Below, piece after piece: positions 1-14,511 of a stretch of 35,887 bases of DNA. The notes below the pieces were generated by a model, which was given only the letters and a program-made list of their open reading frames with translations, ran no database searches and was not told the DNA's origin. Each line of letters starts with the position of its first letter. Position 1 is the first letter of the stretch. Made by a program: the position numbers and the translations under genes. Source of the stretch: Acidimicrobiaceae bacterium (GTDB lineage Bacteria > Actinomycetota > Acidimicrobiia > Acidimicrobiales > Ilumatobacteraceae). The DNA is taken from NCBI GenBank assembly GCA_947467375.1, contig CANIHL010000012.1, forward strand, positions 1 through 35,887. The letters run 5' to 3'.

Positions 1-1982
1 AAGCGCCAACACTGTGGGACGTGGACTTTGGCACAGCGGTTGCACAAGCCGAACTTGAAGACCGCGAGCGCCCTGGTGCGTATCACTCCATCAACTTCGC
101 ACGAACCGATGGCACTGGCAACGTCACCATTGCCACTACTCGACCAGAATTAATTCCTGCGTGCGTAGCACTCGTTGCTCACCCAGATGACCCGCGTTAT
201 CAGCCACTGTTTGGCAAAACTGTGCGCACTCCGTTATTCGATGTTGAAGTTCCTGTCGTTGCACACGAACTTGCTCAAATTGACAAGGGCACTGGCATTG
301 CCATGATTTGTACATTCGGCGACCTCACCGACGTCATTTGGTGGCGCGAACTTAATTTGCCAACTCGGCCAGTGATTGGTCGCGACGGCCGCATTGTTGC
401 CGACATGCCTGACTGGATTACGTCAGCAACAGGAACTGCAAACTACGCAGCACTCGCTGGAAAAGGCGTGAAGCAAGCGCAAACAGCAATCGTTGACATG
501 CTGCGCACAAGCGGCGACATGAACGGCGAGCCAGAGCCAATTACTCACCCTGTGAAGTTCTTTGAAAAGGGTGACCGCCCACTTGAAATCGTGACTAGCC
601 GACAGTGGTACATCCGCAATGGTGGTCGCGACGAAGTACTGCGTGCTGCATTGTTGAAGCGTGGCGACGAGCTTGCATGGCACCCCGACTTCATGCAACA
701 CCGCTACACCAACTGGGTTGGCGGGCTGAACGGCGACTGGCTCATCAGTCGTCAGCGTTACTTCGGAGTTCCGATTCCGTTGTGGTATCCACTTACCGCC
801 GCAGGCGAACCTGACTTCAATAACCCAATCATTCCTAGCGAATCAGACCTGCCGATCGACCCAAGTTCTGACATCCCTGCCGGCTTCACCGAAGCACAAC
901 GCGGAGTCGTTGGCGGATTCATGGGCGAACCAGATGTCATGGACACATGGGCAACATCGTCACTCACTCCGCAAATTGCGGGCCGTTGGATTGACGACCA
1001 GAATTTGTTTAACAACATCTTCCCGATGGATGTTCGCCCGCAAGCTCACGACATCATTCGTACATGGTTGTTTGCCACCACCGTTCGTTCGCACTTCGAG
1101 CACAACATTGCACCATGGAAGAACGCTGCGTTGTCGGGATGGATTCTTGATCCAGACCGCAAAAAGATGTCGAAGTCAAAGGGCAACGTCGTAACACCAA
1201 TCGATTTGTTTGAGCAGTACGGCAGCGATGCAGTTCGCTACTGGGCAGCAAGTGCTCGTCCTGGAGTTGATACCGCATTCAGCGAAGACCAAATGAAGGT
1301 CGGCCGCAAACTTGCGACAAAATTGTTGAACGTCACCAAGTTCGTACTCGGCTTCGGTGAGGCAAACCCAACTGCCACTCCAACAGAAGCAGTTGACATT
1401 GCCATGCTCGCCCGCTTGGCATCAGTTGTTGACGAAGCAACTACTGCTTTCGAAACATACGACTACGCGCGAGCGCTCGAGAAGTCCGAATCATTCTTCT
1501 GGTGGTTCTGTGACGACTACGTAGAACTCGTGAAAACTCGCGCATATTCGGAAGGCGCTGGTTCAGATTCTGCTCGCGCAGCGTTACAACGCGCACTCAG
1601 CACACTGCAACGATTGTTTGCACCGCACATTCCATTTGCAACCGAAGAGGTGTGGAGTTGGTGGCAAACCGGAAGCATTCACCGTGCAACGTGGCCAACA
1701 CGTGCAGACTTGCTCGGCGGAACAACCGATGTTGAATCAACCGAAGACTTGCTCGATGCTGTGTGCAACGTGCTCGCTGTCATTCGCCGTACCAAAACCG
1801 AAGCAAAAGTTTCACAGCGCGCCGAAGTTGAACACGTGCTCGTTTCTGCAACTGATACTCAAGTATCACTTTTGCAATTGGGTCTCGTTGACTTGCTGAA
1901 CGCTGGTGTTGCTCAAAAGATTGAGTTCGTCGCGCATGCAAGTGAGCACATTTCAACAACTGTTCGCTTGTTGGCCCAATGA
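1..1982 (+). CDS. valS: Valine--tRNA ligase, 3' part (5' end outside window)
   Basis: This class I aminoacyl-tRNA synthetase charges tRNA-Val in the cytosol. The reading frame is open from the first base of the window, so the N-terminal HIGH half of the active site lies upstream. About 660 residues are visible. They begin just before the CP1 editing domain (TTRPELIPACVALVAHPDD, then KGTGIAMICTFGD), followed by a DTWATSSLTPQ segment and the ATP-binding KMSKSKGN loop near bases 1161-1184. The C-terminal anticodon-binding helical domain follows (SFFWWFCDDYVELVK). From memory of the family, the TTRPEL and DTWATSSLTP spellings resemble the archaeal-type ValS clade more than the E. coli type. The stop codon overlaps the next start in an ATGA arrangement, so translation of the LCP gene is probably coupled. 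Identity is secure; the clade assignment is tentative. Confidence 0.95.
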   Translation, partial: APTLWDVDFGTAVAQAELEDRERPGAYHSINFARTDGTGNVTIATTRPELIPACVALVAHPDDPRYQPLFGKTVRTPLFDVEVPVVAHELAQIDKGTGIAMICTFGDLTDVIWWRELNLPTRPVIGRDGRIVADMPDWITSATGTANYAALAGKGVKQAQTAIVDMLRTSGDMNGEPEPITHPVKFFEKGDRPLEIVTSRQWYIRNGGRDEVLRAALLKRGDELAWHPDFMQHRYTNWVGGLNGDWLISRQRYFGVPIPLWYPLTAAGEPDFNNPIIPSESDLPIDPSSDIPAGFTEAQRGVVGGFMGEPDVMDTWATSSLTPQIAGRWIDDQNLFNNIFPMDVRPQAHDIIRTWLFATTVRSHFEHNIAPWKNAALSGWILDPDRKKMSKSKGNVVTPIDLFEQYGSDAVRYWAASARPGVDTAFSEDQMKVGRKLATKLLNVTKFVLGFGEANPTATPTEAVDIAMLARLASVVDEATTAFETYDYARALEKSESFFWWFCDDYVELVKTRAYSEGAGSDSARAALQRALSTLQRLFAPHIPFATEEVWSWWQTGSIHRATWPTRADLLGGTTDVESTEDLLDAVCNVLAVIRRTKTEAKVSQRAEVEHVLVSATDTQVSLLQLGLVDLLNAGVAQKIEFVAHASEHISTTVRLLAQ

Positions 1983-3238
1983 CCAAATACCGGCGCCCGC
2001 GCTCGCACTATGCGGTGCTCATATTCAACATTGCAATTGCCGCTTCATTGCTCATCGTTGGTGGTGGCCTGTTGTATGCAGGCCAGCGACTAGGTGCTCG
2101 TCAAGTTGTCAGTTTGAATCGTGGCGACGGCGTAGCCGTCAACGAAGACGCCAATATCGCTCCATCAGACCAATGGAACCTCAGCGAGGGCGACCTCGAC
2201 GCGAAGAACTTCCTCCTCACGGGCTCCGACAACGGCAGCTGTGTAGACCCAAATTCCCCATATGCAGGGGCTTTTGGTGACCGCACATCATTTGGCGAAC
2301 GCAGCGACACCATCATGATTATTCGGGTCAACCCGAAGGACAACCAAGCCGCATTTCTCTCGTTTCCACGCGACCTGTGGGTGAAGATTGCAGGATCAAC
2401 ACGATCGAACCGAATTAACACTGCATTCGAACGCAAGAACCCCAACACGCTTGCTGACACCATTTATCAAAACTTCGGAATCAACATTGATCACTACGTC
2501 AACATCGACTTTTGCGCCTTTAAAGAAATCGTGGATGCCGTTGGTGGAGTAAAGGTTCCATTTCTCTACGAAACCCGAGACAAGAAAACAGGTCTGTACG
2601 TTCCAGCACCGAGTTGCTTTGAGTTCAGCGGTGATCATGCACTCGCTTATGTGCGTTCACGCTCGGGTTATTCGTATTTTGACACCGCAAAAAATGCATG
2701 GGTTGCAGATGGAACTTCCGATCTCGGGCGAATTAGTCGCCAGCAAGACTTCATCCGCCGTGCAATGCAGCGTGCGCTCGACAAGGGATCATCAAGTCCC
2801 AAAGTTGCAAATCAACTCTTAAATGCAGCATTAAAGAACGTCATTACCGATGACCGGCTTACTCCTATCACCATGTTGCAACTTGCTCAAGCAATGCGCA
2901 ATTTGAACACCAGTGGAATTCCTACATACACAGTTGAAAGTTCCGGTCAAATGATTGGTGACCAAGCTGTACTTGTTCCGCGAATTCAAAACGACACCAT
3001 GCGCGAAATTCTTGCGCTGTTTCAAGGCAAGGCAAGTTTTGCAACACCTGGTTCTGCTGCGAACAATCCTTCGCCAGACGCCACTTCTGCCGAAGGAGCC
3101 ATGGGAGCAATTATTTCCACTGTCGCCTATTTGAATACACAACCAAGTAACGGTGTTACGCCTCCAACAATTCCTGTTGTTGCACCAGAACAAAACACCT
3201 ATGGCGTTTCGCCACCTAACGACCCAAGCTGTCGTTAG
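1979..3238 (+). CDS. LytR-CpsA-Psr (LCP) family cell-envelope protein
   Basis: LCP proteins are extracytoplasmic, membrane-anchored phosphotransferases that attach polyprenyl-linked glycopolymers to peptidoglycan. In actinobacteria they typically attach arabinogalactan-like or teichoic polymers. This 419-residue protein has a basic N-terminus, one membrane segment at about residues 11-33 and a linker. The LCP domain starts near residue 75 and shows RSDTIMIIRV (108-117), FPRDLWV with R131-D132, RINTAF with R145, the YVRSRS block (224-229) and GRISRQQDF (250-258). These match the conserved Arg/Asp residues that bind the pyrophosphate lipid. The C-terminal 120 residues are low in complexity (Pro, Thr, Asn, Ser) and hold no LytR_C domain; a separate LytR_C protein lies at 35137-35703. 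The start overlaps the valS stop. It converges with and overlaps the VWA gene by four bases. Confidence 0.9.
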   Translation: MTKYRRPRSHYAVLIFNIAIAASLLIVGGGLLYAGQRLGARQVVSLNRGDGVAVNEDANIAPSDQWNLSEGDLDAKNFLLTGSDNGSCVDPNSPYAGAFGDRTSFGERSDTIMIIRVNPKDNQAAFLSFPRDLWVKIAGSTRSNRINTAFERKNPNTLADTIYQNFGINIDHYVNIDFCAFKEIVDAVGGVKVPFLYETRDKKTGLYVPAPSCFEFSGDHALAYVRSRSGYSYFDTAKNAWVADGTSDLGRISRQQDFIRRAMQRALDKGSSSPKVANQLLNAALKNVITDDRLTPITMLQLAQAMRNLNTSGIPTYTVESSGQMIGDQAVLVPRIQNDTMREILALFQGKASFATPGSAANNPSPDATSAEGAMGAIISTVAYLNTQPSNGVTPPTIPVVAPEQNTYGVSPPNDPSCR

Positions 3239-4152
3239 TCAAGCACGCGACGCATAGCGTCGGGAATATCACTAGGACCACTCACTGTTGTAAACCGTGC
3301 TCCAACAGCATCGGCAAACGCTCGCGCCTCTGCATCATCTTCTAATGGTGCAATCACCACAAGTTCGTCCAACGACTTCGCTGCCGCTCGAGCATCGCCA
3401 TCTACTGTTGCTCGACAATCAGACAACAACACGGTGATTCGCCTGGATGCCCGCGAACGCGCAAGTTGCTCGCGCGATGCATGCAATGCTCCAGCCAAGT
3501 CGGTTGTGCCAAACCCCCGAAGCGCAAGCACGGTGTTCACCACGTCATCGCCAGACTTATGAACGTCTTGTGACTTCGCCGCAATTACGTCTTTTCCGAA
3601 TACCAGCACGCTGTAGTCAGCTGGCTCACGGGCAGCAATAGAGGCTGCAGCCATTGCCGAATTGGCAAGTGGCTTGCCACCCATTGAGCCACTGCGGTCC
3701 ACCACAAGGCTGATGGCTGTTCCTGGCTTCAACCATCCACGCACTCGCAACTCATCAGCATCTACAACACCAGTTGCGCGCAATTCGTTTAGCGCATCCA
3801 AGCTTGCATCAATATCAATGTCGCCAGCATCGGGTTGATATTTGCGCAGCGACATTTTCCCAATTCCGCGCGGTCGAGGTTTTCCACTTTGTGCCAGTTC
3901 AATCAAAATTCGTCCGGCAAGTTTTCGTGCGAGTTCACGTAATGCAGGGTCGGTTGCAGCTGTTAAGTCGGCAAGCATCGACAACGTTTCATCTGGCGAA
4001 TTCTGCATCGCCTCATCGAAAGCAACTTCGTCAAGTTCGCCAACTTCAGGAGAGATCTCTTCAAACCCTGAATGCTTCGACAATTCTTTGCGCGATGTGG
4101 TGCGCTTGCTTGCCTGCTGCGCTGCCTGTTCGGCCTGCGCGCCTTCTTTCAC
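3235..4152 (-). CDS. VWA-domain protein (CoxE/BchD-like), partner of MoxR ATPase
   Basis: The protein has 305 residues. Residues 1-145 are charged and helical, followed by a von Willebrand factor A domain with a complete MIDAS metal site: DRSGS at D152/S154/S156, a Thr near 216-217 in GFGTTDLAG, and Asp 245 in LLSDCRA. Proteins of this layout work with MoxR-type AAA+ ATPases as metal-dependent adaptors that help assemble or activate client enzymes, for example the CoxD-CoxE, Mox and NorQ-NorD pairs. It starts with GTG and shares one base with the stop of the upstream MoxR gene (TAGTG), so the two are translationally coupled. No signal peptide is visible, so it is probably cytosolic. The client is not shown by the sequence. 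The closest candidate is the alcohol dehydrogenase at the head of the same gene string. Confidence 0.85.
   Translation of the reverse strand: MKEGAQAEQAAQQASKRTTSRKELSKHSGFEEISPEVGELDEVAFDEAMQNSPDETLSMLADLTAATDPALRELARKLAGRILIELAQSGKPRPRGIGKMSLRKYQPDAGDIDIDASLDALNELRATGVVDADELRVRGWLKPGTAISLVVDRSGSMGGKPLANSAMAAASIAAREPADYSVLVFGKDVIAAKSQDVHKSGDDVVNTVLALRGFGTTDLAGALHASREQLARSRASRRITVLLSDCRATVDGDARAAAKSLDELVVIAPLEDDAEARAFADAVGARFTTVSGPSDIPDAMRRVLD
3248..3262. terminator. Small perfect hairpin at the end of convergent LCP and VWA genes
   Basis: CGACGC-ATA-GCGTCG forms a six-base-pair stem with a three-base loop ten bases after the LCP stop, inside the last codons of the VWA gene. No T-run follows on either strand, so a terminator role is weakly supported. 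Confidence 0.22.
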
Positions 4153-5096
4153 TAATGGGAGTTCGTTGCCCCAGTCGGGGCGCCAACTTTTCCCGCGTCG
4201 CCGTCTTCCGGCTTCACACCAAACACATCCGCGAAGATTTCAGTAATCACTTCTTCTGCGGTGCGCACATTTCCCTCGCGCAACTTCACCCGACCTGTAA
4301 GCGCCACAAGCGCACTGTCTAAGCCAATCGCAGTTGTTTCAACTGATGCATTGCGCATCGCCGACAAACTTGCAGCCACTACTGCGGTGTCAATGGCACC
4401 ACGGACCGATGAACCAAAACGCAAATCGGAATGATTACGAGTACGTCGCACCATTTCCACAACTAATGCCACCCAGTCACGCGACACCTTTGCCTTGCTG
4501 TTCTGTTTTGTGGTTTCGCGAATCACGATTTCTACTTCGTCTGCTGCGCTTTGATATGTCATTGCAACGCGACATACACGGTCATATACCGCACTTGAAA
4601 TACGCGCTGTGCCCACTGCATCAAATGGATTCATCGCTGCAACAAGCCGGAACCCAGCAGCGCTTTTCACGGTGCCAAGACGCGGAACCGTAATTTCACC
4701 TTCGCTCATCACAGTGATGAGCACGTTCAACGTTTCTTCCGGAATGCGATTGATTTCTTCTACATACAACAACGAACCATCACGCAATGCCGACACCAGT
4801 GGTCCATCAACAAATACGTCGGCGCTGTAGCCATCGGTCAGCACTCGTGCGGGGTCGAAGTGCCCAACCAAACGTGCTGGCGTAAGTTCTGCATTGCCTT
4901 CAACGAAGGCGAAACCTACGCCAAGTGCTTCGGCAACAGACCGCAAAAGCGTTGATTTTCCTGTACCTGGAGGGCCTTCTAACAAGATGTGGCGACCACC
5001 ATGCAATGCAGCGACGACAAGTTCTAGTTCGCGCGCGCGACCAACAACCGAAGCTGCCGAAACGCGAAGAACGTCGCTTGCCGACGCTGCTGCCAT
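4152..5096 (-). CDS. MoxR-family AAA+ ATPase
   Basis: This 314-residue AAA+ ATPase of the MoxR group acts as a chaperone that remodels or activates enzyme complexes together with VWA partners. Visible motifs are Walker A GPPGTGKST (41-49), Walker B LLYVEEINR (109-117), the sensor-1 region AAMNPFDAVG (153-162) and a C-terminal lid with DLRFGSSVRG. The length is normal for the family. The ATG start lies 12 bases after the stop of the alcohol dehydrogenase gene, and the end is coupled to the VWA gene, which gives the order ADH - MoxR - VWA. No good Shine-Dalgarno sequence or close TANNNT hexamer is seen before this start, consistent with a position inside an operon. The link to dehydrogenase maturation is inference from gene order and from the founding MoxR of methanol oxidation. 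Confidence 0.92.
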   Translation of the reverse strand: MAAASASDVLRVSAASVVGRARELELVVAALHGGRHILLEGPPGTGKSTLLRSVAEALGVGFAFVEGNAELTPARLVGHFDPARVLTDGYSADVFVDGPLVSALRDGSLLYVEEINRIPEETLNVLITVMSEGEITVPRLGTVKSAAGFRLVAAMNPFDAVGTARISSAVYDRVCRVAMTYQSAADEVEIVIRETTKQNSKAKVSRDWVALVVEMVRRTRNHSDLRFGSSVRGAIDTAVVAASLSAMRNASVETTAIGLDSALVALTGRVKLREGNVRTAEEVITEIFADVFGVKPEDGDAGKVGAPTGATNSH

Positions 5097-5108
5097 GAGT
5101 GTGACTAA

Positions 5109-6221
5109 CTAGTCGAACTTAATAACGCCACGGATGTTTTCTCCGTCGCGCATTGCTCGGTAACCCTCGTTGATGTCGCTCAGTTTGTATTCCTTGGTGA
5201 CAAGACCGTCGAGGTCGAGCTGACCTTCGCGATATAGACCCATCAACTTTGGAATGTCCGAGCGTGGGTTGCCCGAACCAAACAACGAACCAACCAACTG
5301 CTTTTCCATCAACGTCAGGTCGAGCAAGCTCATGCCTGCACCGAACTCAGTTGCTGGGTGAATGTTGGTTACAACAACACGACCGCGCTTTGCAGTGAGT
5401 GCCATCGCTTCGTGAATAACTGCGCCGTTTCCAACGCCCATGGTCATGATCACTTTGTTGGCCATGGTTCCCCATGTGAGTTCTTGCAGCAGTGGCAATG
5501 CTTCAGCCATTGAGTTTGCAGTGTGTGTTGCACCGAACTCCATTGCCTTCTCACGCTTGAATTCCACTGGGTCAATTGCAACGATGCGCTTTGCACCAGC
5601 AATACGAGCACCCTGAATTGCGTTCGCACCAATTCCGCCGGCACCTACAACGACAACTGTGTCGCCAGGTTTTACTTCAGCGGCGTACACGCTTGATCCC
5701 CAACCGGTAACTACACCGCAACCGAGCAAGCACGCGCGGTCAAGAGGGACATCCTTTTCAATCTTGATGCAACTTGCTTCGTGCACAACCGTGTGTTCAG
5801 CAAATGTTCCAAGCAAGCACATAATGCCAACGTCTTTCCCGCCGGCATGGTGACGCGATGTTTGGTCACTGATTTGCTTTCCTGTTGCCATGAACGCACC
5901 AAGGTCGCACAAGTTTTGATGTCCAGTACTGCAACTGACGCAACGACCACATGACGGAATGAACCCGAACACCACGTGATCGCCAGGTGCTAGCCAACTG
6001 ACGTTCGATCCAACTTGTTGAACAACTCCAGCGCCTTCGTGGCCACCGATAATTGGCAATTCGAATGGCAAGTCACCCGTAACCAAGTGCTCATCGCTGT
6101 GACACATTCCAGAAGCGGCAAGTTTGACCAACACTTCGTTTGGACCTGGCGCATCAAGTTCAATTTCTTCGATTGTCCATGGAGCATTCAACTCCCACAA
6201 CACTGCTGCCTTTGTCTTCAC
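5109..6221 (-). CDS. NDMA-dependent (mycofactocin-linked) alcohol dehydrogenase
   Basis: This zinc-dependent medium-chain dehydrogenase of 370 residues oxidises alcohols with a tightly bound nicotinamide. Family members with this signature cannot exchange their NAD and were named for the artificial acceptor NDMA; mycofactocin is taken to be the natural acceptor. Visible are catalytic zinc ligands C40 with H61-E62 and C168 (LLGCGV), four structural-zinc cysteines (C91, C94, C97, C105), and the Rossmann glycine motif GAGGIG (193-198). The start is GTG with a strong Shine-Dalgarno GAGGGGG (bases 6227-6233) five bases upstream. The gene is divergent from the mycofactocin operon and heads the ADH-MoxR-VWA string. 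The family call rests on overall sequence resemblance and on the neighbouring mft genes. Confidence 0.92.
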   Translation of the reverse strand: MKTKAAVLWELNAPWTIEEIELDAPGPNEVLVKLAASGMCHSDEHLVTGDLPFELPIIGGHEGAGVVQQVGSNVSWLAPGDHVVFGFIPSCGRCVSCSTGHQNLCDLGAFMATGKQISDQTSRHHAGGKDVGIMCLLGTFAEHTVVHEASCIKIEKDVPLDRACLLGCGVVTGWGSSVYAAEVKPGDTVVVVGAGGIGANAIQGARIAGAKRIVAIDPVEFKREKAMEFGATHTANSMAEALPLLQELTWGTMANKVIMTMGVGNGAVIHEAMALTAKRGRVVVTNIHPATEFGAGMSLLDLTLMEKQLVGSLFGSGNPRSDIPKLMGLYREGQLDLDGLVTKEYKLSDINEGYRAMRDGENIRGVIKFD

Positions 6222-6328: not shown

Positions 6329-6334
6329 TACTGT
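6329..6334 (+). promoter_or_regulatory. -10 hexamer for a leaderless mftA transcript
   Basis: TACTGT lies eight bases before the mftA ATG (6343), and no Shine-Dalgarno sequence is at a usable distance. The spacing places transcription start at or next to the start codon. The remainder of the ~120-base divergent region (6222-6342) shows no convincing -35 box or operator palindrome. Confidence 0.45.
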
Positions 6335-6342
6335 GGACGGTG

Positions 6343-6492
6343 ATGGACACCACAGCACCACTAGCCGTAGATACCGCCCAGGCCCAGACTGCAAGCCACA
6401 ACAGCGTTTCCTCGGCAACCACCACACCGCACATCGTTGAAGAACTCCTCGTTGAGGAAATTTCTATCGACGGCATGTGTGGCGTGTACTAA
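6343..6492 (+). CDS. mftA: Mycofactocin precursor peptide MftA
   Basis: A 49-codon gene encodes a short peptide ending in the diagnostic C-terminus EEISIDGMCGVY. In the established pathway the last Val-Tyr is decarboxylated and cross-linked by MftC, then cut off by MftE to become the core of mycofactocin. The upstream part is an Ala/Thr/Ser-rich leader (MDTTAPLAVDTAQ...) and is longer than in the roughly 30-residue mycobacterial MftA; the acidic helix HIVEELLVEE before the core is typical. The ATG lies eight bases after a TANNNT hexamer and lacks a Shine-Dalgarno site, and an in-frame GTG sits directly before it at 6340. The stop is followed after 17 bases by mftB. The exact ending and the position just before mftB-mftC make the call very firm. 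Confidence 0.96.
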   Translation: MDTTAPLAVDTAQAQTASHNSVSSATTTPHIVEELLVEEISIDGMCGVY

Positions 6493-6509
6493 CTCGCAGT
6501 CGCTTCACC

Positions 6510-6779
6510 ATGACCGTCACCCTGGATTCAGCGTGTGAGTTGCACCCTCAAGTTGCACTTCGCCCAGAACCCTTCGGCGCACTTGCCTATCACTACGGCA
6601 ATCGCAAACTTGTTTTTTTAAAACACCCAGACGTTGTAGCTGTGCTGCGCGATGTAGCAGCACACGACACACTCGCTGACACCTTGGTTGCGCACAATGT
6701 TGCGCCAGAGCGTTGGAATTCATTTGTGAGCGCACTCAGCTCACTTGAGACATCGGAGATCATTCGTGTCCGTCAGTAA
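6510..6779 (+). CDS. mftB: Mycofactocin peptide chaperone MftB (RRE domain)
   Basis: This small protein of 89 residues belongs to the RiPP recognition element (PqqD-like) group. It binds the MftA leader and presents the peptide to MftC. The characteristic start LHPQVALRPEPFGALAYHYG is followed by KLVFLKHPDVVAVL, the beta-hairpin and helix of the fold. The ATG at 6510 is chosen because it gives the usual MftB length; an open GTG at 6477 would overlap mftA and add 11 unrelated residues. The last codons overlap the mftC start by 14 bases, and the C-terminal coding sequence carries the mftC ribosome binding site. It acts in the cytosol as a complex with MftC. Confidence 0.93.
   Translation: MTVTLDSACELHPQVALRPEPFGALAYHYGNRKLVFLKHPDVVAVLRDVAAHDTLADTLVAHNVAPERWNSFVSALSSLETSEIIRVRQ
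6755..6758 (+). promoter_or_regulatory. Shine-Dalgarno site that fixes the mftC GTG start
   Basis: GGAG lies seven bases before GTG 6766, inside the end of mftB. It supports the GTG start and translational coupling over the ATG further upstream at 6745. Confidence 0.6.
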
Positions 6780-7887
6780 CTTAACCACACAACTCAAGGG
6801 CGGGCTTGACGCGCCAATTTGTTTGACATGGGAACTCACCTATGCCTGCAACTTGCAGTGCATCCATTGTTTGTCCAGCAGCGGTCGTCGCGACCCTCGC
6901 GAGCTCGACACCGATCAAGTGAAGAATGTGCTCGATCAATTACGCGACTTGCAAGTGTTCTACATCAACATCGGTGGCGGCGAGCCAATGATTCGCAAAG
7001 ACTTCTTCGAGATTCTTGAACATGCCGAGCACAACAACATTGGCGTGAAGTTTTCCACCAACGGCACATACATCACTGCAGAAAATGCGAAGCGCCTTGC
7101 TTCCATGAACTACCTCGATATTCAAATCAGCATGGACGGCGTTGACCGTGCAACAAATGACGCCGTGCGTGGTGAAGGTTCGTTCGACACATCTATTGCT
7201 GCAATGAACCACTTGCGTGATGCAAACTTCGGGCCGTTCAAAATTTCTGTAGTCATGACCCGACACAACGTTGATCAGCTCGATGCTTTCAAACAACTTG
7301 CAGATAGCTACGGCGCGCAACTCCGTATCACGCGCTTGCGTCCTGCGGGACGTGGTGCAGATACATGGAATGAATTGCACCCAACTCAAACTCAACAGCG
7401 ACAGATCTATAACTGGCTTATTGCACATGGCGACAACGTGCTTACTGGCGACTCGTTCTTCCATCTCAATGCATTTGGTGAATCGCTTCCAGGTTTGAAC
7501 TTATGTGGCGCTGGTCGCGTGGTGTGCCTCATCGACCCAATTGGCGATGTATACGCGTGCCCTTTCGTGATTCACGATCAATTCAAAGCAGGCTCGGTGC
7601 ACGATGAGGGCGGTTTTGCGAACGTGTGGCGAAACAGTGATCTTTTCCTCTCGCTACGCGAACCAGAGTCCGAAGGTGCGTGCACGTCGTGCGGTAACTA
7701 TGACTCATGCCAAGGCGGTTGCATGGCAGCAAAGTTCTTTACTGGTTTGCCACTCGATGGCCCAGACCCTGAATGTGTAATAGGTGCAGGCGAATCGCTA
7801 CTGAAGAGCGCAACCGTGACCCTCATTCCAAAACCGAGCATGGACCATTCGCGTAAAGTTTCGGTAACTACTGGGGGAAATAAGTAA
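6766..7887 (+). CDS. mftC: Mycofactocin radical SAM maturase MftC
   Basis: This radical SAM-SPASM enzyme of 373 residues performs oxidative decarboxylation of the MftA C-terminal Tyr, then forms the Val-Tyr carbon-carbon link. The radical SAM cluster is C28-x3-C32-x2-C35 in TYACNLQCIHC. The GGEP motif follows (YINIGGGEPM). The C-terminal SPASM region has many cysteines (LCGAGRVVCLIDPIGDVYACP, then CTSCGNYDSCQGGC and PECV) for auxiliary Fe-S clusters. The GTG start at 6766 has a GGAG site seven bases upstream and overlaps the end of mftB. The stop shares one base with the plsY start (TAATG). All expected ligands are present, so the enzyme appears intact. Confidence 0.96.
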   Translation: MSVSNLTTQLKGGLDAPICLTWELTYACNLQCIHCLSSSGRRDPRELDTDQVKNVLDQLRDLQVFYINIGGGEPMIRKDFFEILEHAEHNNIGVKFSTNGTYITAENAKRLASMNYLDIQISMDGVDRATNDAVRGEGSFDTSIAAMNHLRDANFGPFKISVVMTRHNVDQLDAFKQLADSYGAQLRITRLRPAGRGADTWNELHPTQTQQRQIYNWLIAHGDNVLTGDSFFHLNAFGESLPGLNLCGAGRVVCLIDPIGDVYACPFVIHDQFKAGSVHDEGGFANVWRNSDLFLSLREPESEGACTSCGNYDSCQGGCMAAKFFTGLPLDGPDPECVIGAGESLLKSATVTLIPKPSMDHSRKVSVTTGGNK

Positions 7888-8525
7888 TGGACTTTTCACT
7901 GAACGGCGTCGAGCCGATCTATGTTGCAGGCGCAATTATTGTGTCCTACTTTCTCGGCACCATCCCAAGCGCACTCATCGTTGCCAAGCGCGGAGGCGTC
8001 GATGTAACCGCTGAAGGTTCTGGCAACCCTGGAACGTCAAACGTGGTTCGTCTTCTCGGTTGGAAGTACGGGCTCGTGGTGTTTGTATCCGACGTATTGA
8101 AAGGTTCGGCCTCTGTGGGCCTTGCGTACTACCTCACACATCACTTTGGTGACGGTCTTAACGTTTCATACTTGGCTTATGCATGTGCATACGCGGCAGT
8201 GCTTGGCCACACGTTCCCCATCACCCGTGGTTTCCACGGCGGTAAAGGCGTGGCAACTGGCGGTGGAACCATGTTTGTGCTGTACCCAGTGATGAGCGCT
8301 GTGCTGTGCACGTCATGGTTCGTGTTGCGCAAACTCACGGGCAAGTCTGCACTTGCATCACTCATCATCACTATTGCTGTACCTGTGTATGTCATTGCCA
8401 CTGTTGGATTCGGCGAACCAGACTCGTGGCAAATTGCTGCCGTACTTGGACTCGTTAGCATGATCATCATTCGACACCTGCCAAACATTCGACGCATGCG
8501 CGCGAACGAGGAACTTGCCGCGTAA
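7887..8525 (+). CDS. plsY: PlsY-family acyl-phosphate:glycerol-3-phosphate acyltransferase
   Basis: This is an integral membrane enzyme of 212 residues with about five to seven hydrophobic segments. PlsY transfers an acyl chain from acyl-phosphate to glycerol-3-phosphate, the first step of phospholipid synthesis. Three family motifs are visible: SYFLGTIPSALIVAK near the N-terminus, GSGNPGTSNVVRLLG (canonical GSGNIGATN), and GHTFPITRGFHGGKGVATGGG. The ATG shares a base with the mftC stop (TAATG) and follows a GGGGGAA stretch, so it is translated with the mycofactocin operon. No plsX is nearby. Motif 2 differs at two positions from the usual text, so this may be a paralogue with altered acyl or acceptor preference. 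Its location between mftC and mftE is unusual. Confidence 0.88.
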   Translation: MDFSLNGVEPIYVAGAIIVSYFLGTIPSALIVAKRGGVDVTAEGSGNPGTSNVVRLLGWKYGLVVFVSDVLKGSASVGLAYYLTHHFGDGLNVSYLAYACAYAAVLGHTFPITRGFHGGKGVATGGGTMFVLYPVMSAVLCTSWFVLRKLTGKSALASLIITIAVPVYVIATVGFGEPDSWQIAAVLGLVSMIIIRHLPNIRRMRANEELAA

Positions 8526-8546
8526 ATTGCTCGCGCTTCCACCAAC

Positions 8547-9161
8547 ATGATTTCGCTCATCACTGAGTTCTTCAATGGGCTTAAGGATTTTTCCGATTCC
8601 TATTGGTTTTACGTCATCATCTTTGTTATCGCGGTACTCGATTCCGTGATTCCAATCGTGCCAAGCGAAACATTGGTCATCATTGGTGGAGTTAGTGCTG
8701 GCTCGGGTTCGCTGTCACTTGGACTCGTGCTTTTGTGTGCAACTACAGGCGCATTTATTGGTGACCACGTTTCATACGAAATTGGGAAAAAGGCAAGCGC
8801 GTTTGTTACCCGTCGCTATGAACGAACAGAAAAGGGTGCGAAGCGTTTGAATGCAGTTATTCACCACATCAATGAACGTGGTGGATTACTACTTGTGACT
8901 GCACGCTTCATTCCAGGAGGTCGAACGATCTTGACCCTGACTTGCGGAATTACCCACCAACGCCAACGATGGTTTTCGGGTTGGATTGCCGTCGCCACAA
9001 TCATTTGGGCAACCTATGCGTCATTGCTTGGTTTTATTGGCGGAAAGACATTTGCTGACAATCACACGTTGGCCTTTACCTTTGCCTTTGGCTGTGCAAT
9101 TGGGGTTACCGCGGTTATTGAACTTGTGCGTTTCATTTTGAAAAAACGCAAGTCACAATGA
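8547..9161 (+). CDS. DedA-family membrane protein
   Basis: The protein has 204 residues and several membrane segments. DedA proteins are now linked to moving lipids such as undecaprenyl phosphate or phosphatidylethanolamine across the membrane. Conserved charged positions are visible: the Glu in IVPSETLV, the Asp in GAFIGDHVSYEIGKK, and the two Arg of TARFIPGGRTILTLT, followed by the C-terminal aromatic helix. It lies 21 bases after plsY and 3 bases before mftE, so it is part of the mycofactocin gene string. No Shine-Dalgarno sequence is obvious before the ATG. The substrate cannot be told from sequence. Pairing with plsY hints at a membrane-lipid module. Confidence 0.85.
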   Translation: MISLITEFFNGLKDFSDSYWFYVIIFVIAVLDSVIPIVPSETLVIIGGVSAGSGSLSLGLVLLCATTGAFIGDHVSYEIGKKASAFVTRRYERTEKGAKRLNAVIHHINERGGLLLVTARFIPGGRTILTLTCGITHQRQRWFSGWIAVATIIWATYASLLGFIGGKTFADNHTLAFTFAFGCAIGVTAVIELVRFILKKRKSQ

Positions 9162-9164
9162 GGC

Positions 9165-9842
9165 ATGCCTAGTTCGCCAACGTGGCCTGAAATTCCACGC
9201 AATGCATGTGTAGTCATTCCCGTTGGCTCATACGAACAACACGGTCCACACCTACCGCTTGACACTGATACGCAAATTGCATCGCACCTGTGTACCGCTG
9301 CCGCAATAGGTATCGACCGCGTCATTATTGGCCCGCCACTGTCAATCACCGCCAGCGGCGAGCATGCAGGATTTCCAGGCACCATTTCTATTGGCACCGA
9401 TGCTCTCGTCACGGTGATCGTGGAACTAGTTCGGTCATGCGACTGGGCAAGCGGCGTGATCCTGGCGCATGGTCACGGTGGAAACGTAGAAGCGGTAAAA
9501 CGAGCAACAACGTTATTGCTTTCTGAGCAACGCAACGTTGCCAATTGGTGGCCACACATTCAGGGTGCTGATGCTCATGCTGGGCACACAGAGACTTCAT
9601 TGATGATGGCAATTAATCCGCGCCTTGTTCGTATGGACAAATTGGACATCGGCAATGTGCAACCAATGAGTGAAATACAACGTGATCTTCAAACCAGCGG
9701 CGTCCAGGCAGTAAGCCCAAATGGCATTCTTGGTAACGCTCGCACAGCAACCGCAAAACATGGTGAACAACTGGTCGCAATGCTGACTGAAGATCTACGC
9801 GCATTCATACATGCCACTTGCCAGCAATGGAACAATGCGTGA
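9165..9842 (+). CDS. mftE: Mycofactocin peptidase MftE (creatininase family)
   Basis: MftE is a metal-dependent amidohydrolase that releases the modified Val-Tyr dipeptide (AHDP) from processed MftA. This 225-residue protein shows the creatininase metal ligands: EQHGPHLPLDTD (E24, H26, D33, D35), GEHAGFPGTISIG, LAHGHGGN and DAHAGHTETSLM. It starts 3 bases after dedA, and its TGA overlaps the mftF GTG (GTGA). In most mycofactocin loci mftE directly follows mftD; here dedA precedes it. A generic creatininase is the alternative, but the mftC and mftF context makes MftE by far the best call. Confidence 0.92.
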   Translation: MPSSPTWPEIPRNACVVIPVGSYEQHGPHLPLDTDTQIASHLCTAAAIGIDRVIIGPPLSITASGEHAGFPGTISIGTDALVTVIVELVRSCDWASGVILAHGHGGNVEAVKRATTLLLSEQRNVANWWPHIQGADAHAGHTETSLMMAINPRLVRMDKLDIGNVQPMSEIQRDLQTSGVQAVSPNGILGNARTATAKHGEQLVAMLTEDLRAFIHATCQQWNNA

Positions 9843-11233
9843 CAAGCGCAGTTCGCTTCATCGCCGACAGTTCGTGGCGTCGGCCAGCAAACGGAAATGT
9901 TGTTCTGGCCGGTTCGCCACTGAAGTTGTTTTCCCTTTCGCAAGCCGGTCAGGCAATTGCCGAATGCATTGAGCGTGCACAGACTCTTCCTGTAGGTCAT
10001 GAAGTCCTCACTGAACGATTGCTTGATGCTGGAGCAATTCACCCAGTTCCAAGCACAGTCGATTCTGCTCGCTTTGTGCTCAACACCATTACTGCAGTTA
10101 TTCCTGCCTGCATTCGCACTGCTCAAGAAGCAGAATCACTGCAGTCGCTCGTTACCTCATGCTCAGCACTGCATGGTGTTGTCGTCGTCGATGACTGCTC
10201 GCCACATGCACTTCCCAATCTTGGTGCGGCACGGGTAATCCGTCTCGAAAAGAACAGTGGACCCGCTGCCGCACGCAATGCAGGTTTGGCGGTGGTTGAT
10301 ACTCAATTCATTGCCTATATCGATGTCGATGTGGCGATTTCCTCCAACACCATTTCTCAACTCCTGCCCTACTTTTCAGACGACAAAGTAGCCTTCGTTG
10401 CGCCACGAGTGAAATCGCCTGCAACTACTTCTGTTCTTGGTGAATATGAAGTCGCCGCGAGTGTGCTCGACATGGGCGAAACCGAGGCTCGTGTGCGTGC
10501 TGGAACTCGCGTCAGTTATGTGCCGTCTGCAATGTGGTTGTGTCGAACTGCAGCACTGCGGTCACTTTCTGGTTTTGATGAATCGCTTCGTTCTGGCGAA
10601 GACGTCGACATGGTGTGGCGCCTCAATGCCGCGGGCTGGCGCTGTCGCTACCAACCACAAGCTGAGTGTTCGCATTCGCCTCGCACCACGTTGCAGAAAT
10701 TTGTGCAACAACGCATGTCGTACGGAGAATCGGCGGCACCGCTTGCAAAACGACATCCTGGAAAACTCGCGCCTGCAACATTCAATCTCTGGCAGACATC
10801 AACATGGCTCTTAGTACTGCTCGGATTGCCATTCATTGCACTGGGAGTCGCAATTGCGGCGTCAGCATCTACTGCAAAAAAGTTGCGAAGGTTTCCACAA
10901 TTGCGCGATGAGAGTTTCCGCATCGCTTTGCACGGAATGGTAAAAAGCGCTCAATCTGCAGCGAGCGCCATCAACCGCGTGTGGTGGCCAATTGCATTTA
11001 TTCTTGCATTATTTTCACAACGCCTAAGAGTGCTCTTTATCGTTGCAGCACTCGGGCCTGCCGTATACGAATGGTGGACAAAGCGCCCGCATCTTGATGT
11101 TGTGCGTTTTGCGCTGATCAAAATGTTGGACAACGCCGCTTACGGAGCTGGCGTATGGAAAGGCGTGATTGCTACGCGAACTATCGCGCCACTTATTCCT
11201 ACAGTGAAGAAGTCTGCAACGAACGAGGAGTGA
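9839..11233 (+). CDS. mftF: Mycofactocin glycosyltransferase MftF
   Basis: This GT2-type glycosyltransferase of 464 residues decorates (pre)mycofactocin with a beta-1,4-linked glucose chain. Residues 1-75 form a winged-helix-like segment (SLSQAGQAIAECIERAQ, then RLLDAGAIHPVP) that resembles an RRE or PqqD fold. The GT-A domain follows, with VVVDDCSPHALP, LEKNSGPAAARNAGL, IDVDVAIS and the acceptor motif GEDVDMVWRLNAAGWRC. The C-terminus carries hydrophobic stretches (WLLVLLGLPFIALGVAIA and FILALFSQRLRVLFIVAALG), so it is probably membrane-associated. GTG 9839 is preferred because it gives a GTGA overlap with mftE; ATGs at 9818 and 9827 are open alternatives. The end overlaps the convergent DUF4395 gene by 35 bases. 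Confidence 0.92.
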   Translation: MTSAVRFIADSSWRRPANGNVVLAGSPLKLFSLSQAGQAIAECIERAQTLPVGHEVLTERLLDAGAIHPVPSTVDSARFVLNTITAVIPACIRTAQEAESLQSLVTSCSALHGVVVVDDCSPHALPNLGAARVIRLEKNSGPAAARNAGLAVVDTQFIAYIDVDVAISSNTISQLLPYFSDDKVAFVAPRVKSPATTSVLGEYEVAASVLDMGETEARVRAGTRVSYVPSAMWLCRTAALRSLSGFDESLRSGEDVDMVWRLNAAGWRCRYQPQAECSHSPRTTLQKFVQQRMSYGESAAPLAKRHPGKLAPATFNLWQTSTWLLVLLGLPFIALGVAIAASASTAKKLRRFPQLRDESFRIALHGMVKSAQSAASAINRVWWPIAFILALFSQRLRVLFIVAALGPAVYEWWTKRPHLDVVRFALIKMLDNAAYGAGVWKGVIATRTIAPLIPTVKKSATNEE

Positions 11234-11708: not shown

Positions 11709-11775
11709 AAGGCCAATTGTTGACTTAACAAGTCGGCTTTTAACCGGTTGTCCGCGATGCCCGAAAATGGTCAGA

Positions 11776-11781
11776 TACCGT
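11776..11781 (+). promoter_or_regulatory. -10 hexamer that supports ATG 11790 for the racemase-like gene
   Basis: TACCGT lies eight bases before ATG 11790. The earlier in-frame TTG 11748 and ATG 11757 have neither a TANNNT at this distance nor a Shine-Dalgarno site. An AACCGGTT palindrome is seen at 11742-11749. Confidence 0.38.
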
Positions 11782-11789
11782 CAAGTGCA

Positions 11790-12740
11790 ATGACTTTGCG
11801 CCTCACCGTGAATCGCCAAGCTTGGCTCGATCACGTTCGACTTACCGCTTCCCAGCACGGCACCACCCTGCCCGTGGTGAAGGGCAATGGCTACGGGTTT
11901 GGTCGCCCAATTCTGTTTGAACAGACAGCTCATCTTGCTGACCATGTTGCAGTGGGAACCGTCTATGAAGCCACAGATGTTCCCGCAGCGCTTACGCCTG
12001 TCGTACTCACACCTGTTGGCTCGCATATTCCACATTCGCTTCCAACGCGTTCAGTACTCACTGTTGGATCGCTCGATCACGTTGCAATGCTTCGCTCACA
12101 CAATTGGCAAGGCAGTGTGCTCATCAAGTTGCAGTCCACTATGCAGCGCTTCGGCGTTTCCGGAGACGAACTGGCCACACTTCGGTCTGCATGCGAGCAG
12201 GCATCGCTCAACGTTGTTGGTTACTCGATACACCCGCCACTCAACAACGAAGGACAAGACCGCAGTGGTGAAGTGTCGTGTTGGTTAGAACTACTCACCG
12301 ACAATTTGCCGATGTACGTCAGCCACCTGACTGCCAAGCAAATTGGTTCGTTGCGTTCACAATTTCCAAACCGCACATTTGTTTCGCGCATTGGAACAGC
12401 TTTGTGGTTAGGTGACAAATCCATGATGAAACTGACGGCCGAAGTACTCGATGTTCATCAAGTCGATGGTGGAACAGCTGGTTACCGATCGATCGCACTT
12501 TCTGGAGCCGGACATCTCGTCATTGTCGGTGCAGGATCGGCGCACGGAGTAAGTGAAATTGTAGGAGTAGGAAGTCCGTTTCATTTTGCACAACAACGCA
12601 TTGCACTTGTTGAACCACCACACATGCACAGCAGCATGCTGTTCTTTCCTGCAGTTCAGTCAGTTCCGCGCATTGGCGATCAAGTTGACGTTCAACAACC
12701 ACTCACACGCGTAAGCGCTGACACCATTTCGTGGGAATAA
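11790..12740 (+). CDS. Alanine racemase-like PLP protein with divergent C-terminal domain
   Basis: About 316 residues from ATG 11790. The N-terminus is an alanine-racemase PLP barrel: PVVKGNGYGFG with the Schiff-base Lys at position 31, LIKLQSTMQRFG, and TFVSRIGTALWLG. In classical Alr the C-terminal domain carries the second catalytic base, a Tyr in GYADG, and an MDQ motif. Here the matching region reads VGAGSAHGVSEIVG, and later EPPHMHSSMLFFP, so the Tyr and MDQ appear to be missing. The protein may use another base, be an amino-acid or peptidoglycan-precursor enzyme, or be a binding protein. Upstream starts at 11748 (TTG) and 11757 (ATG) would add up to 14 residues. The stop overlaps the GTG start of the DUF418 gene, so the two are coupled. 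Confidence 0.75.
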   Translation: MTLRLTVNRQAWLDHVRLTASQHGTTLPVVKGNGYGFGRPILFEQTAHLADHVAVGTVYEATDVPAALTPVVLTPVGSHIPHSLPTRSVLTVGSLDHVAMLRSHNWQGSVLIKLQSTMQRFGVSGDELATLRSACEQASLNVVGYSIHPPLNNEGQDRSGEVSCWLELLTDNLPMYVSHLTAKQIGSLRSQFPNRTFVSRIGTALWLGDKSMMKLTAEVLDVHQVDGGTAGYRSIALSGAGHLVIVGAGSAHGVSEIVGVGSPFHFAQQRIALVEPPHMHSSMLFFPAVQSVPRIGDQVDVQQPLTRVSADTISWE

Positions 12741-13852
12741 CAAGCAACACAATTCGTCCGCCTCGAATTCTGAGTTTGGACGTCACTCGCGCCATAGCTC
12801 TCGTTGGCGTGGTGATCATGAACTATCACGCCTACCTCAACACAGACAAGGCGTTTTACCCTCAACACCCTTCGTTTGCTGAACGAATATTCAATCCTCT
12901 TTCTGGAATTCTGACCACTCGGTTTGCAGCAACATTTGTACTCGTTGCAGGAATTGGTATTGCGCTTTTGGTCCAATCAGCAGTTCAGTCGGACGACTGT
13001 GCACTCATCCACACCGCACAAATGAAGTTGGCTCGTCGAGGATTGTTTCTGTATGTCGTTGGTGCGGCTGTGCAGTGGATATGGCCGGGAACCATCCTGT
13101 TCTATTACGGCGCTTTCTTCTTGATTTCAGCGGTTATTTGCACATGGTCAAACCGCAGTCTTATTGCTGTATCGGCAATATCTATTGCGCTTTCCACCGG
13201 GCTTTCCGCTTGGCGTGGATACCAGTTCTTTCAGGGGAACTTCACGCAGTGGTTGTCACCCACCCCCAATTCCCCGCGAAATCTATTGATTCGAACGTTT
13301 GTTGATTACACGCATCCAGTTTTCCCGTGGATCACATTCATCTGCGTCGGAATCATTCTGGGACGAAACATTCATCACCTCGCTGAATTACGCACACGCA
13401 TCATGCTGTGGTCCGGTGTCACTTTGTTTTTCACCTTTGTAATTCGCACTTTCATTATGCCTAGTTCAATAACGTCGCAATCGAATTACGTAATGCAACG
13501 CGTGCTCTCCACCAACAACGTTGACCATTCGGTTCTTCATGTCACATCGACTGTGTCGGTTGCGCTCCTTGCATTCTGCTGTGTTTCACTTATTACCGAT
13601 TTTCAGGGATCGAATCGTGTTGTTGAGTTCCTTGCTCGCACCGGACAAATGACTTTGTCGATTTACCTCGCACATGTTTTGGTGTTCAACTTTGTTGTGC
13701 ATTGGTTGAACTGGGTGCGGCCAACTGGGCTTGACACTGCACTTGTGCTCAGCCTCGCCTTTTATGTAATTGCTGTTCCAGTGTCATCAATGTGGCAACG
13801 CAGATTTGGCATCGGACCATTTGAGCGCGTGTACCGCGCATTTGGCGGATGA
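12731..13852 (+). CDS. DUF418 / acyltransferase-like polytopic membrane protein
   Basis: This 373-residue protein with about ten membrane segments opens with the signature LSLDVTRAIALVGVVIMNYHAYL, seen in YeiB/DUF418 and heparan-acetyltransferase-like (DUF1624) families. The C-terminal half contains FLARTGQMTLSIYLAHVLVFNF, a strong DUF418-type motif, and ends with RFGIGPFERVYRAFGG, typical of the group (W-R..F..GP.E...R). The reaction is unknown; acyl or lipid-linked group transfer across the membrane is a family-level guess. It starts at GTG 12731, overlapping the stop of the racemase-like gene, and ends in an ATGA overlap with ung. The coupling to the racemase-like gene suggests a shared envelope role. 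Confidence 0.78.
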   Translation: MGITSNTIRPPRILSLDVTRAIALVGVVIMNYHAYLNTDKAFYPQHPSFAERIFNPLSGILTTRFAATFVLVAGIGIALLVQSAVQSDDCALIHTAQMKLARRGLFLYVVGAAVQWIWPGTILFYYGAFFLISAVICTWSNRSLIAVSAISIALSTGLSAWRGYQFFQGNFTQWLSPTPNSPRNLLIRTFVDYTHPVFPWITFICVGIILGRNIHHLAELRTRIMLWSGVTLFFTFVIRTFIMPSSITSQSNYVMQRVLSTNNVDHSVLHVTSTVSVALLAFCCVSLITDFQGSNRVVEFLARTGQMTLSIYLAHVLVFNFVVHWLNWVRPTGLDTALVLSLAFYVIAVPVSSMWQRRFGIGPFERVYRAFGG

Positions 13853-14511
13853 TTGTTCCCGAATCGTGGCGCGAGATATTGCGCAACGAAACCTCTCAGC
13901 CTTATTTCACCAAGCTCACCGAATTCGTTGCGCGTGAACGCGGTTCATTTAATGTTTTTCCCTCCGAAGACAACGTGTTTGCTGCATTGCAACTCACTGC
14001 ACCACACGATGTTCGCGTAGTGATCGTTGGTCAAGACCCGTATCACGGAGCAGGACAGGCACACGGATTGAGTTTCTCCGTGCAACATGGAACGCGCATC
14101 CCGCCATCGTTGCGCAACATCCATACCGAGCTACACACCGATCTTGATGTTCCTCTTCCAACGAATGGAAATCTCAAATCATGGGCAATGCAAGGCGTTC
14201 TACTGCTGAATACCACGCTCACCGTTCGTGAAGGTGAAGCTGCGTCACATGCAGGACACGGATGGGAAACCTTTACCGATGCGATCATTTCGCACCTCGG
14301 ATCACAAGACCAGCACATCGTGTTTGTGTTGTGGGGCGCTCATGCGGGAAAGAAGGCATCACTCGTCAATCAGCAACACACCGTGATCACTTCGGTACAT
14401 CCCTCGCCTCTATCCGCCCATCGCGGATTCTTTGGTTCTCGCCCATTTTCACAAACCAATCGTGCTCTTTCAGATCACCATCAACCCGAGATCAACTGGG
14501 CGATCGCCTGA
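13849..14511 (+). CDS. ung: Uracil-DNA glycosylase, family 1
   Basis: Ung removes uracil from DNA in base-excision repair. The 220-residue protein has the family-1 water-activating motif GQDPYHG (61-67, with D63), LLLNTTLTV with the uracil-binding Asn near 121, FVLWGAHA, and the DNA-intercalation motif HPSPLS (184-189). The length is normal. Its ATG overlaps the stop of the DUF418 gene, so this DNA-repair gene is expressed at least partly from an envelope-type operon. No ribosome binding site or close -10 hexamer of its own is seen. Confidence 0.96.
   Translation: MIVPESWREILRNETSQPYFTKLTEFVARERGSFNVFPSEDNVFAALQLTAPHDVRVVIVGQDPYHGAGQAHGLSFSVQHGTRIPPSLRNIHTELHTDLDVPLPTNGNLKSWAMQGVLLLNTTLTVREGEAASHAGHGWETFTDAIISHLGSQDQHIVFVLWGAHAGKKASLVNQQHTVITSVHPSPLSAHRGFFGSRPFSQTNRALSDHHQPEINWAIA

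Follow-up and report, generated by a model that had tools for sequence, protein, structure and literature searches.

The locus of interest lies in positions 1 to 35,887 of contig CANIHL010000012.1 (Acidimicrobiaceae bacterium assembly GCA_947467375.1), a stretch of 35,887 nucleotides hereafter called the window. It contains genes for the biosynthesis of the cofactor mycofactocin, arranged around two genes of another kind, plsY and dedA. The arrangement is real: the window holds an ordinary mycofactocin (mft) pathway in an unusual setting, with mftD elsewhere in the genome and plsY and dedA as bystanders. Comparison with relatives further points to a flavoenzyme module that would stand in for MftD where mftD is missing. 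The genes of the locus are as follows.

6343..6492, + strand: mftA, mycofactocin precursor of 49 aa with C-terminus IDGMCGVY (TIGR03969 53.8 bits, cut-off 25; PF23709 52.5)
6510..6779, + strand: mftB, chaperone (TIGR03967 90.9 bits, cut-off 33)
6766..7887, + strand: mftC, radical SAM maturase (TIGR03962 593 bits, cut-off 265)
7887..8525, + strand: plsY, glycerol-3-phosphate acyltransferase, a resident housekeeping gene (PF02660; copy number; same block without mft in loci L224-L227)
8547..9161, + strand: dedA (VTT domain), membrane protein, resident partner of plsY (PF09335 68 bits; neighbour of plsY in mft-negative relatives)
9165..9842, + strand: mftE, creatininase-family peptidase (TIGR03964 263.2 bits, cut-off 172)
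9839..11233, + strand: mftF, glycosyltransferase (TIGR03965 383.5 bits, cut-off 280)

The junctions around the two additional genes are tight: mftC and plsY overlap (TAATG), gaps of 21 and 3 bases separate plsY from dedA and dedA from mftE, and mftE and mftF overlap (GTGA). MftA, MftB, MftC, MftE and MftF all passed their NCBIfam cut-offs in a profile search, while PlsY scored 141.9 bits against PF02660 (cut-off 24.1) and slightly under the cut-off of TIGR00023 (131.4 vs 137.2). Since the mftA-B-C-plsY-dedA-E-F block is repeated in the fetched sister-species loci (the exception, G147, being without mftE), the arrangement is far beyond chance. A profile scan of the locus and its scanned neighbours revealed no mftD, and no TetR regulator was found among those neighbours (a genome-wide mftR search was not made). 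The first-pass annotation of this DNA had read the locus in the same way—the gene order and junctions, the slot between mftC and mftE filled by plsY and dedA, and the lack of an adjoining mftR—and coordinates, profiles and neighbours bear this out.

mftE above its cut-off is missing from G147 and from several members of genus g2 (G001, G028, G071, G105), all of which have mftC and mftF.

An unlinked mftD

The window's genome (G000) is a draft of 1.68 Mb in 101 contigs, 92% complete with 2.9% contamination, and was searched for one protein family at a time. An intact mftD was found on another contig (G000:C10:15960-17111), without internal stop and with a score of 687.5 bits over a cut-off of 470.85. 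Absence of mftD from the genome is thus rejected and, among the options put forward in the first pass, relocation of mftD is the right one here. Because the intact mftD sits at an unlinked site of the same genome, the complete pathway (MftA-B-C-E-D-F) is shown to be encoded. As in the canonical mycobacterial mftA-B-C-D-E-F cluster, there are six biosynthetic genes, an IDGMCGVY core and a divergent NDMA-dependent alcohol dehydrogenase (ADH); the differences are the unlinked mftD, the presence of plsY and dedA in the slot between mftC and mftE, and the lack of mftR among the scanned neighbours.

In the window's genus (L001:10-1443, L117, L238), this genome and sister species alike, mftD comes directly after a methyltransferase gene of the MttB family (PF06253, 344.6 bits). 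The number of contigs, the contamination estimate and the separate contig would suit an organism truly without MftD whose draft genome contains a foreign mftD. This is scarcely credible: the MftD belongs to a starred clade that also holds its sister-species counterparts, which makes contamination an unlikely source, it shares their mttB neighbour, and OYE1 (the enzyme found in mftD-less relatives, see below) is counted absent from this genome (best match merely E 5e-20), so that no replacement enzyme would be left.

plsY, dedA and their neighbourhood

A search of 40 genomes shows that plsY is not peculiar to mycofactocin loci. The window's genome has exactly one PF02660 gene, that in the mft locus, and every genome searched from its family (Ilumatobacteraceae-like Acidimicrobiales, f1) has at least one, mft-negative genera g4 and g9 included; in G011 and G023 it is unlinked to mft. 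In genera g4 and g9 (G003, G030, G009, G048; loci L224-L227) the order is valS-LCP-plsY-dedA-alaR, uninterrupted; between the flanks there is no match to mft, VWA, AAA or ADH genes, and DUF418 and ung follow alaR in part of these loci, where recovered. The flanking genes in the window are:

21..3238, + strand: valS-like fragment and LCP-family gene, left flank of the resident block (LytR_cpsA_psr domain; beside plsY-dedA in mft-negative relatives)
3235..4152, - strand: CoxE-like VWA protein, pairs with the AAA ATPase (PF13519, PF05762 and synteny)
4152..5096, - strand: MoxR/GvpN-like AAA ATPase, kept beside mft in the family (PF07728 and synteny)
5109..6221, - strand: NDMA-dependent alcohol dehydrogenase, divergent from mftA (TIGR03989 562.2 bits, cut-off 440)
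11748..14511, + strand: alanine-racemase-like (alaR), DUF418 and ung-like genes, right flank of the resident block (alaR directly after dedA in G003, G030, G009, G048)

Because g4 and g9 have plsY-dedA between the same flanks without mft, the pair is resident and the mft genes lie around it; plsY and dedA are bystanders to the pathway. The two genes had originally been described as "spliced in" between mftC and mftE; the relation is the reverse, with mft genes enclosing a pair already in place.

Conserved linkage, in combination with a missing mftD, had been proposed as a sign of a variant pathway. The linkage itself holds across genera, with 35 of 38 family loci having plsY downstream of mftC, but it arises through a shared neighbourhood in which the pair also occurs mft-free. 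It is a conserved neighbourhood, not evidence for a role in the pathway. Together with the tight spacing, this linkage is what speaks for plsY and dedA belonging to the pathway and giving a lipid-linked or membrane-anchored mycofactocin, as the first pass had speculated. That idea is highly improbable and we reject it: plsY is a housekeeping gene present as the sole copy in the window's genome, mft-negative relatives carry the same plsY-dedA block, and among the loci compared plsY after mftC was not seen outside the family. Of the signs that would mark dedication to the pathway, extra copies were not found in the window's genome and restriction to mft genomes is contradicted by the mft-negative relatives; a lipid-linked variant is not needed.

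Near mft loci the NDMA-dependent alcohol dehydrogenase is joined family-wide by the AAA ATPase and the VWA protein (window 3235-6221; L211, L213, L217), and in two genomes of f24 (G160, G189) ADH, AAA and VWA matches are located between mftC and mftD. The two proteins may serve in activation or loading of the dehydrogenase.

MftD and OYE1 among mycofactocin genomes

In the 150 family genomes searched, the cut-off is exceeded by mftC in 119 and by MftD in 51. The mftC-positive genomes without MftD carry OYE1 (TIGR03996, "mycofactocin system FadH/OYE family oxidoreductase 1"), as a rule near mftC or plsY. Strict counts divide the 119 into 49 with MftD only, 51 with OYE1 only, 0 with both and 19 with neither; when contig-cut fragments are counted, the figures are 53, 62, 0 and 4. 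By chance, some 21 genomes should have had both (Fisher p 5e-18, strict). The switch occurs even within genera (g2 and g12).

Mycofactocin genomes elsewhere were examined in three sets: (i) the rest of the phylum, with 29 mftC-positive genomes, 24 of them MftD-positive and none of these 24 with OYE1, while the 5 MftD-negative ones comprise 3 with full OYE1, 1 with OYE1 truncated at a contig end and 1 (G326, with a divergent MftC) with OYE2 at 928 bits and ETF genes; (ii) the 36 genomes behind the listed OYE1 loci of named genomes (the best 80 of 336 loci), Actinobacteria bacterium IMCC26207 among these, in which MftD is above cut-off in 0; and (iii) 12 plasmids with mftC. Six of these plasmids, all from Streptomyces, have OYE1 and no mftD; the reverse, mftD without OYE1, holds for four (M. 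chubuense NBB4, Streptomyces NBC_00080, Tsukamurella and Thermomicrobium). At the search threshold neither was found on the remaining two, which are haloarchaeal; the Haloterrigena plasmid carries ETF, FixC-like and ferredoxin genes with an OYE2-like protein (625 bits, under cut-off).

OYE1 belongs to a module, OYE1-OYE2-etfA-fixC-fixX-etfB, that includes genes for an electron transfer flavoprotein (ETF); its EtfA and EtfB are above the mft_etfA and mft_etfB cut-offs. ETF genes are found in loci without mftD, both in the family and among its neighbours, and in no MftD-type locus compared (mft_etf genes were not searched genome-wide in the window's genome). The module can be seen within a single operon in Streptomyces NBC_00334 (mftA-B-C-OYE1-OYE2-etfA-fixC-fixX-etfB-SDR-mftF-mftE; NBC_00564 is similar), and in several lineages OYE1 comes immediately after mftC, where mftD normally is. 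In the family, mftE and mftF are mostly encoded together, in most genera apart from mftABC.

Two comparisons connect the module to the window's gene order. Firstly, in the family genome G022 the order is valS-LCP-VWA-AAA-ADH-ADH-mftA-B-C-OYE1-plsY-(SDR)-OYE2-dedA, followed by etfA-fixC-fixX-etfB-mftE-mftF-alaR-DUF418-(others)-ung; removal of the module and the extra dehydrogenases leaves the order of the window. On this comparison the window appears to descend from a module-type locus whose module disappeared, mftD having been acquired at another site. Secondly, within g2 the order mftABC-OYE1-plsY-OYE2-dedA-etfA-fixC-fixX-etfB-mftF (G028) coexists with mftABC-plsY-dedA-mftF in the MftD-positive G001 and G071.

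The exchange has occurred repeatedly. A MftC tree of 65 rows needs 15 label changes between MftD and module, at least 6 of them on starred branches, and in 6/6 independent pairs MftD and module change oppositely (sign test p 0.03). Family MftDs are polyphyletic, forming at least three separate groups that fall among the MftDs of other families, which suggests that MftD was gained repeatedly by transfer.

Three records of metagenome-assembled genomes titled "Bifidobacterium breve" or "Ferrithrix thermotolerans" (L134, L150, L157) contain module-type mft loci resembling those of the window's family, and are probably mislabelled.

A candidate counterpart of MftD

MftD oxidatively deaminates AHDP, and M. 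smegmatis no longer makes mycofactocin once mftD is deleted (PMC7491314). A parallel for the module is offered by Pno, an enzyme of the same class as the OYE proteins, which deaminates its substrate and passes the electrons to EtfAB and from there to an ETF:quinone oxidoreductase whose gene lies in the pno cluster as well; neither NAD(P)+ nor O2 works as acceptor (PMC7688666). Because the mft module is made up of the same components as the Pno cluster, we propose that it replaces MftD in mftD-less genomes: (i) an OYE-class iron-sulfur flavoenzyme would oxidise the AHDP amine to an imine, (ii) the imine would be hydrolysed to the keto-amide pre-mycofactocin, and (iii) the electrons would pass from ETF to FixCX and to quinone, requiring neither O2 nor NAD(P)H. 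The overall reaction would be AHDP + H2O + ETF(ox) -> pre-mycofactocin + NH3 + ETF(red). An ETF-coupled AHDP deaminase made up of OYE1/OYE2 with ETF and FixCX is our best inference from gene content and from this analogy, and the deamination would probably be oxygen-independent. The first-pass suggestion that another enzyme deaminates AHDP thus does not apply to the window's genome, which has MftD and not OYE1; it probably does apply to many mftD-less relatives, which have OYE1 and the rest of the module.

Several protein features fit this proposal. All 11 aligned OYE1 and OYE2 proteins have a 4Fe-4S motif (CxxCxxxC-x11-C), which in the relatives' OYE1 comes with an OYE barrel and C-terminal domains. 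The full-length fold of OYE1 matches FadH, 2-naphthoyl-CoA reductase (NCR), histamine dehydrogenase, a nicotine-pathway amine oxidase and trimethylamine dehydrogenase, in a structure model of moderate confidence (pLDDT 77, 11 sequences, low near the iron-sulfur loop). OYE1 and OYE2 thus share fold and 4Fe-4S motif with trimethylamine, histamine and 6-hydroxypseudooxynicotine dehydrogenases and, like pno, their genes adjoin ETF and ETF:quinone-oxidoreductase-like genes. Where FadH has its GCGGIG motif, the NADPH site, the alignment shows DPIGGPI in OYE1 and DELGFHH or a similar sequence in most OYE2 rows, opposite a D-rich stretch of histamine dehydrogenase; the replacement of GCGGIG suggests a partner other than NADPH for both proteins.

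A number of points weigh against the proposal. The reductases FadH and NCR rank slightly ahead of the amine dehydrogenases in the fold search. OYE1, with ~25% identity to the ETF-coupled amine dehydrogenases, has Asn and Gln where trimethylamine dehydrogenase carries its active-site Tyr and His (OYE2 retains a His), and the OYE tyrosine is missing at its aligned position too. In Haloterrigena and G326 the sole OYE protein is of the OYE2 type, so that either OYE1 or OYE2 could be the one that acts on AHDP. In addition, four family genomes, all incomplete drafts, have neither MftD nor OYE1, the family searches scored the best 7-11 candidates per genome, and switches on the MftC tree were counted without the direction of each.

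The OYE/ETF module could instead re-oxidise mycofactocinol, in the manner of MftG, with some other enzyme deaminating AHDP in mftD-less genomes. ETF and FixCX would feed quinone, as MftG ties mycofactocin to respiration (PMC11778925); each module has two OYE proteins, one of which may serve re-oxidation; and MftG is nearly absent from the family (above cut-off in 1/150 genomes). MftG is, however, rare in MftD-type and OYE-type genomes alike, and is rejected as the cause of the switch. With the exclusion specific to MftD, and with OYE1 in the usual mftD slot, we regard this alternative as doubtful.

For the module as a replacement of MftD, then, the replacement pattern is well supported and the proposed mechanism plausible. 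The combined account—mftD elsewhere, a resident plsY-dedA pair, the MftD-or-OYE1 pattern, the window as an ex-module locus, and the module replacing MftD—we judge likely as a whole. We lean slightly towards the fuller version, in which two exchangeable routes to the redox core (MftD, or OYE/ETF/FixCX with electrons to quinone and probably without oxygen) have been exchanged for one another on at least six occasions, including inside a genus, one replacement being recorded by the window's gene order.

That MftD occurs in most, not all, mycofactocin species has been noted before (Haft 2011, PMC3023750). Saccharopolyspora clusters without mftD and with TIGR03997 were described in BGCFlow 2024 (PMC11162802), which cites Saccharopolyspora erythraea, whose cluster is without mftD, as a producer of methylated mycofactocin. 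The same OYE family adjoins mftC in mftD-less loci of the window's relatives; unlike those Saccharopolyspora clusters, the window's genome has MftD, and ETF/FixCX and strict exclusion are not described there. In the literature searched, mycofactocin is not joined with "electron transfer flavoprotein" or with Acidimicrobi*, and there is no report of systematic MftD/OYE exclusion or of an ETF chain. As far as searched, the strict exclusion, the ETF module as MftD counterpart and the resident plsY-dedA pair are new.

Formation of the redox-active centre of mycofactocin falls to MftD, the sole enzyme known for this step in the mycobacterial pathway as characterised. A second, unrelated enzyme system would, if true, explain cofactor production in mftD-less bacteria and a haloarchaeon, and suggest a role for NCBIfam families of unknown function or tentative name. 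Cluster finders that require mftD, as does the antiSMASH 6.1.1 rule (PMC11162802), would overlook about half of the family's mycofactocin genomes. Finally, if the proposed route is true, mycofactocin production without oxygen could be possible.

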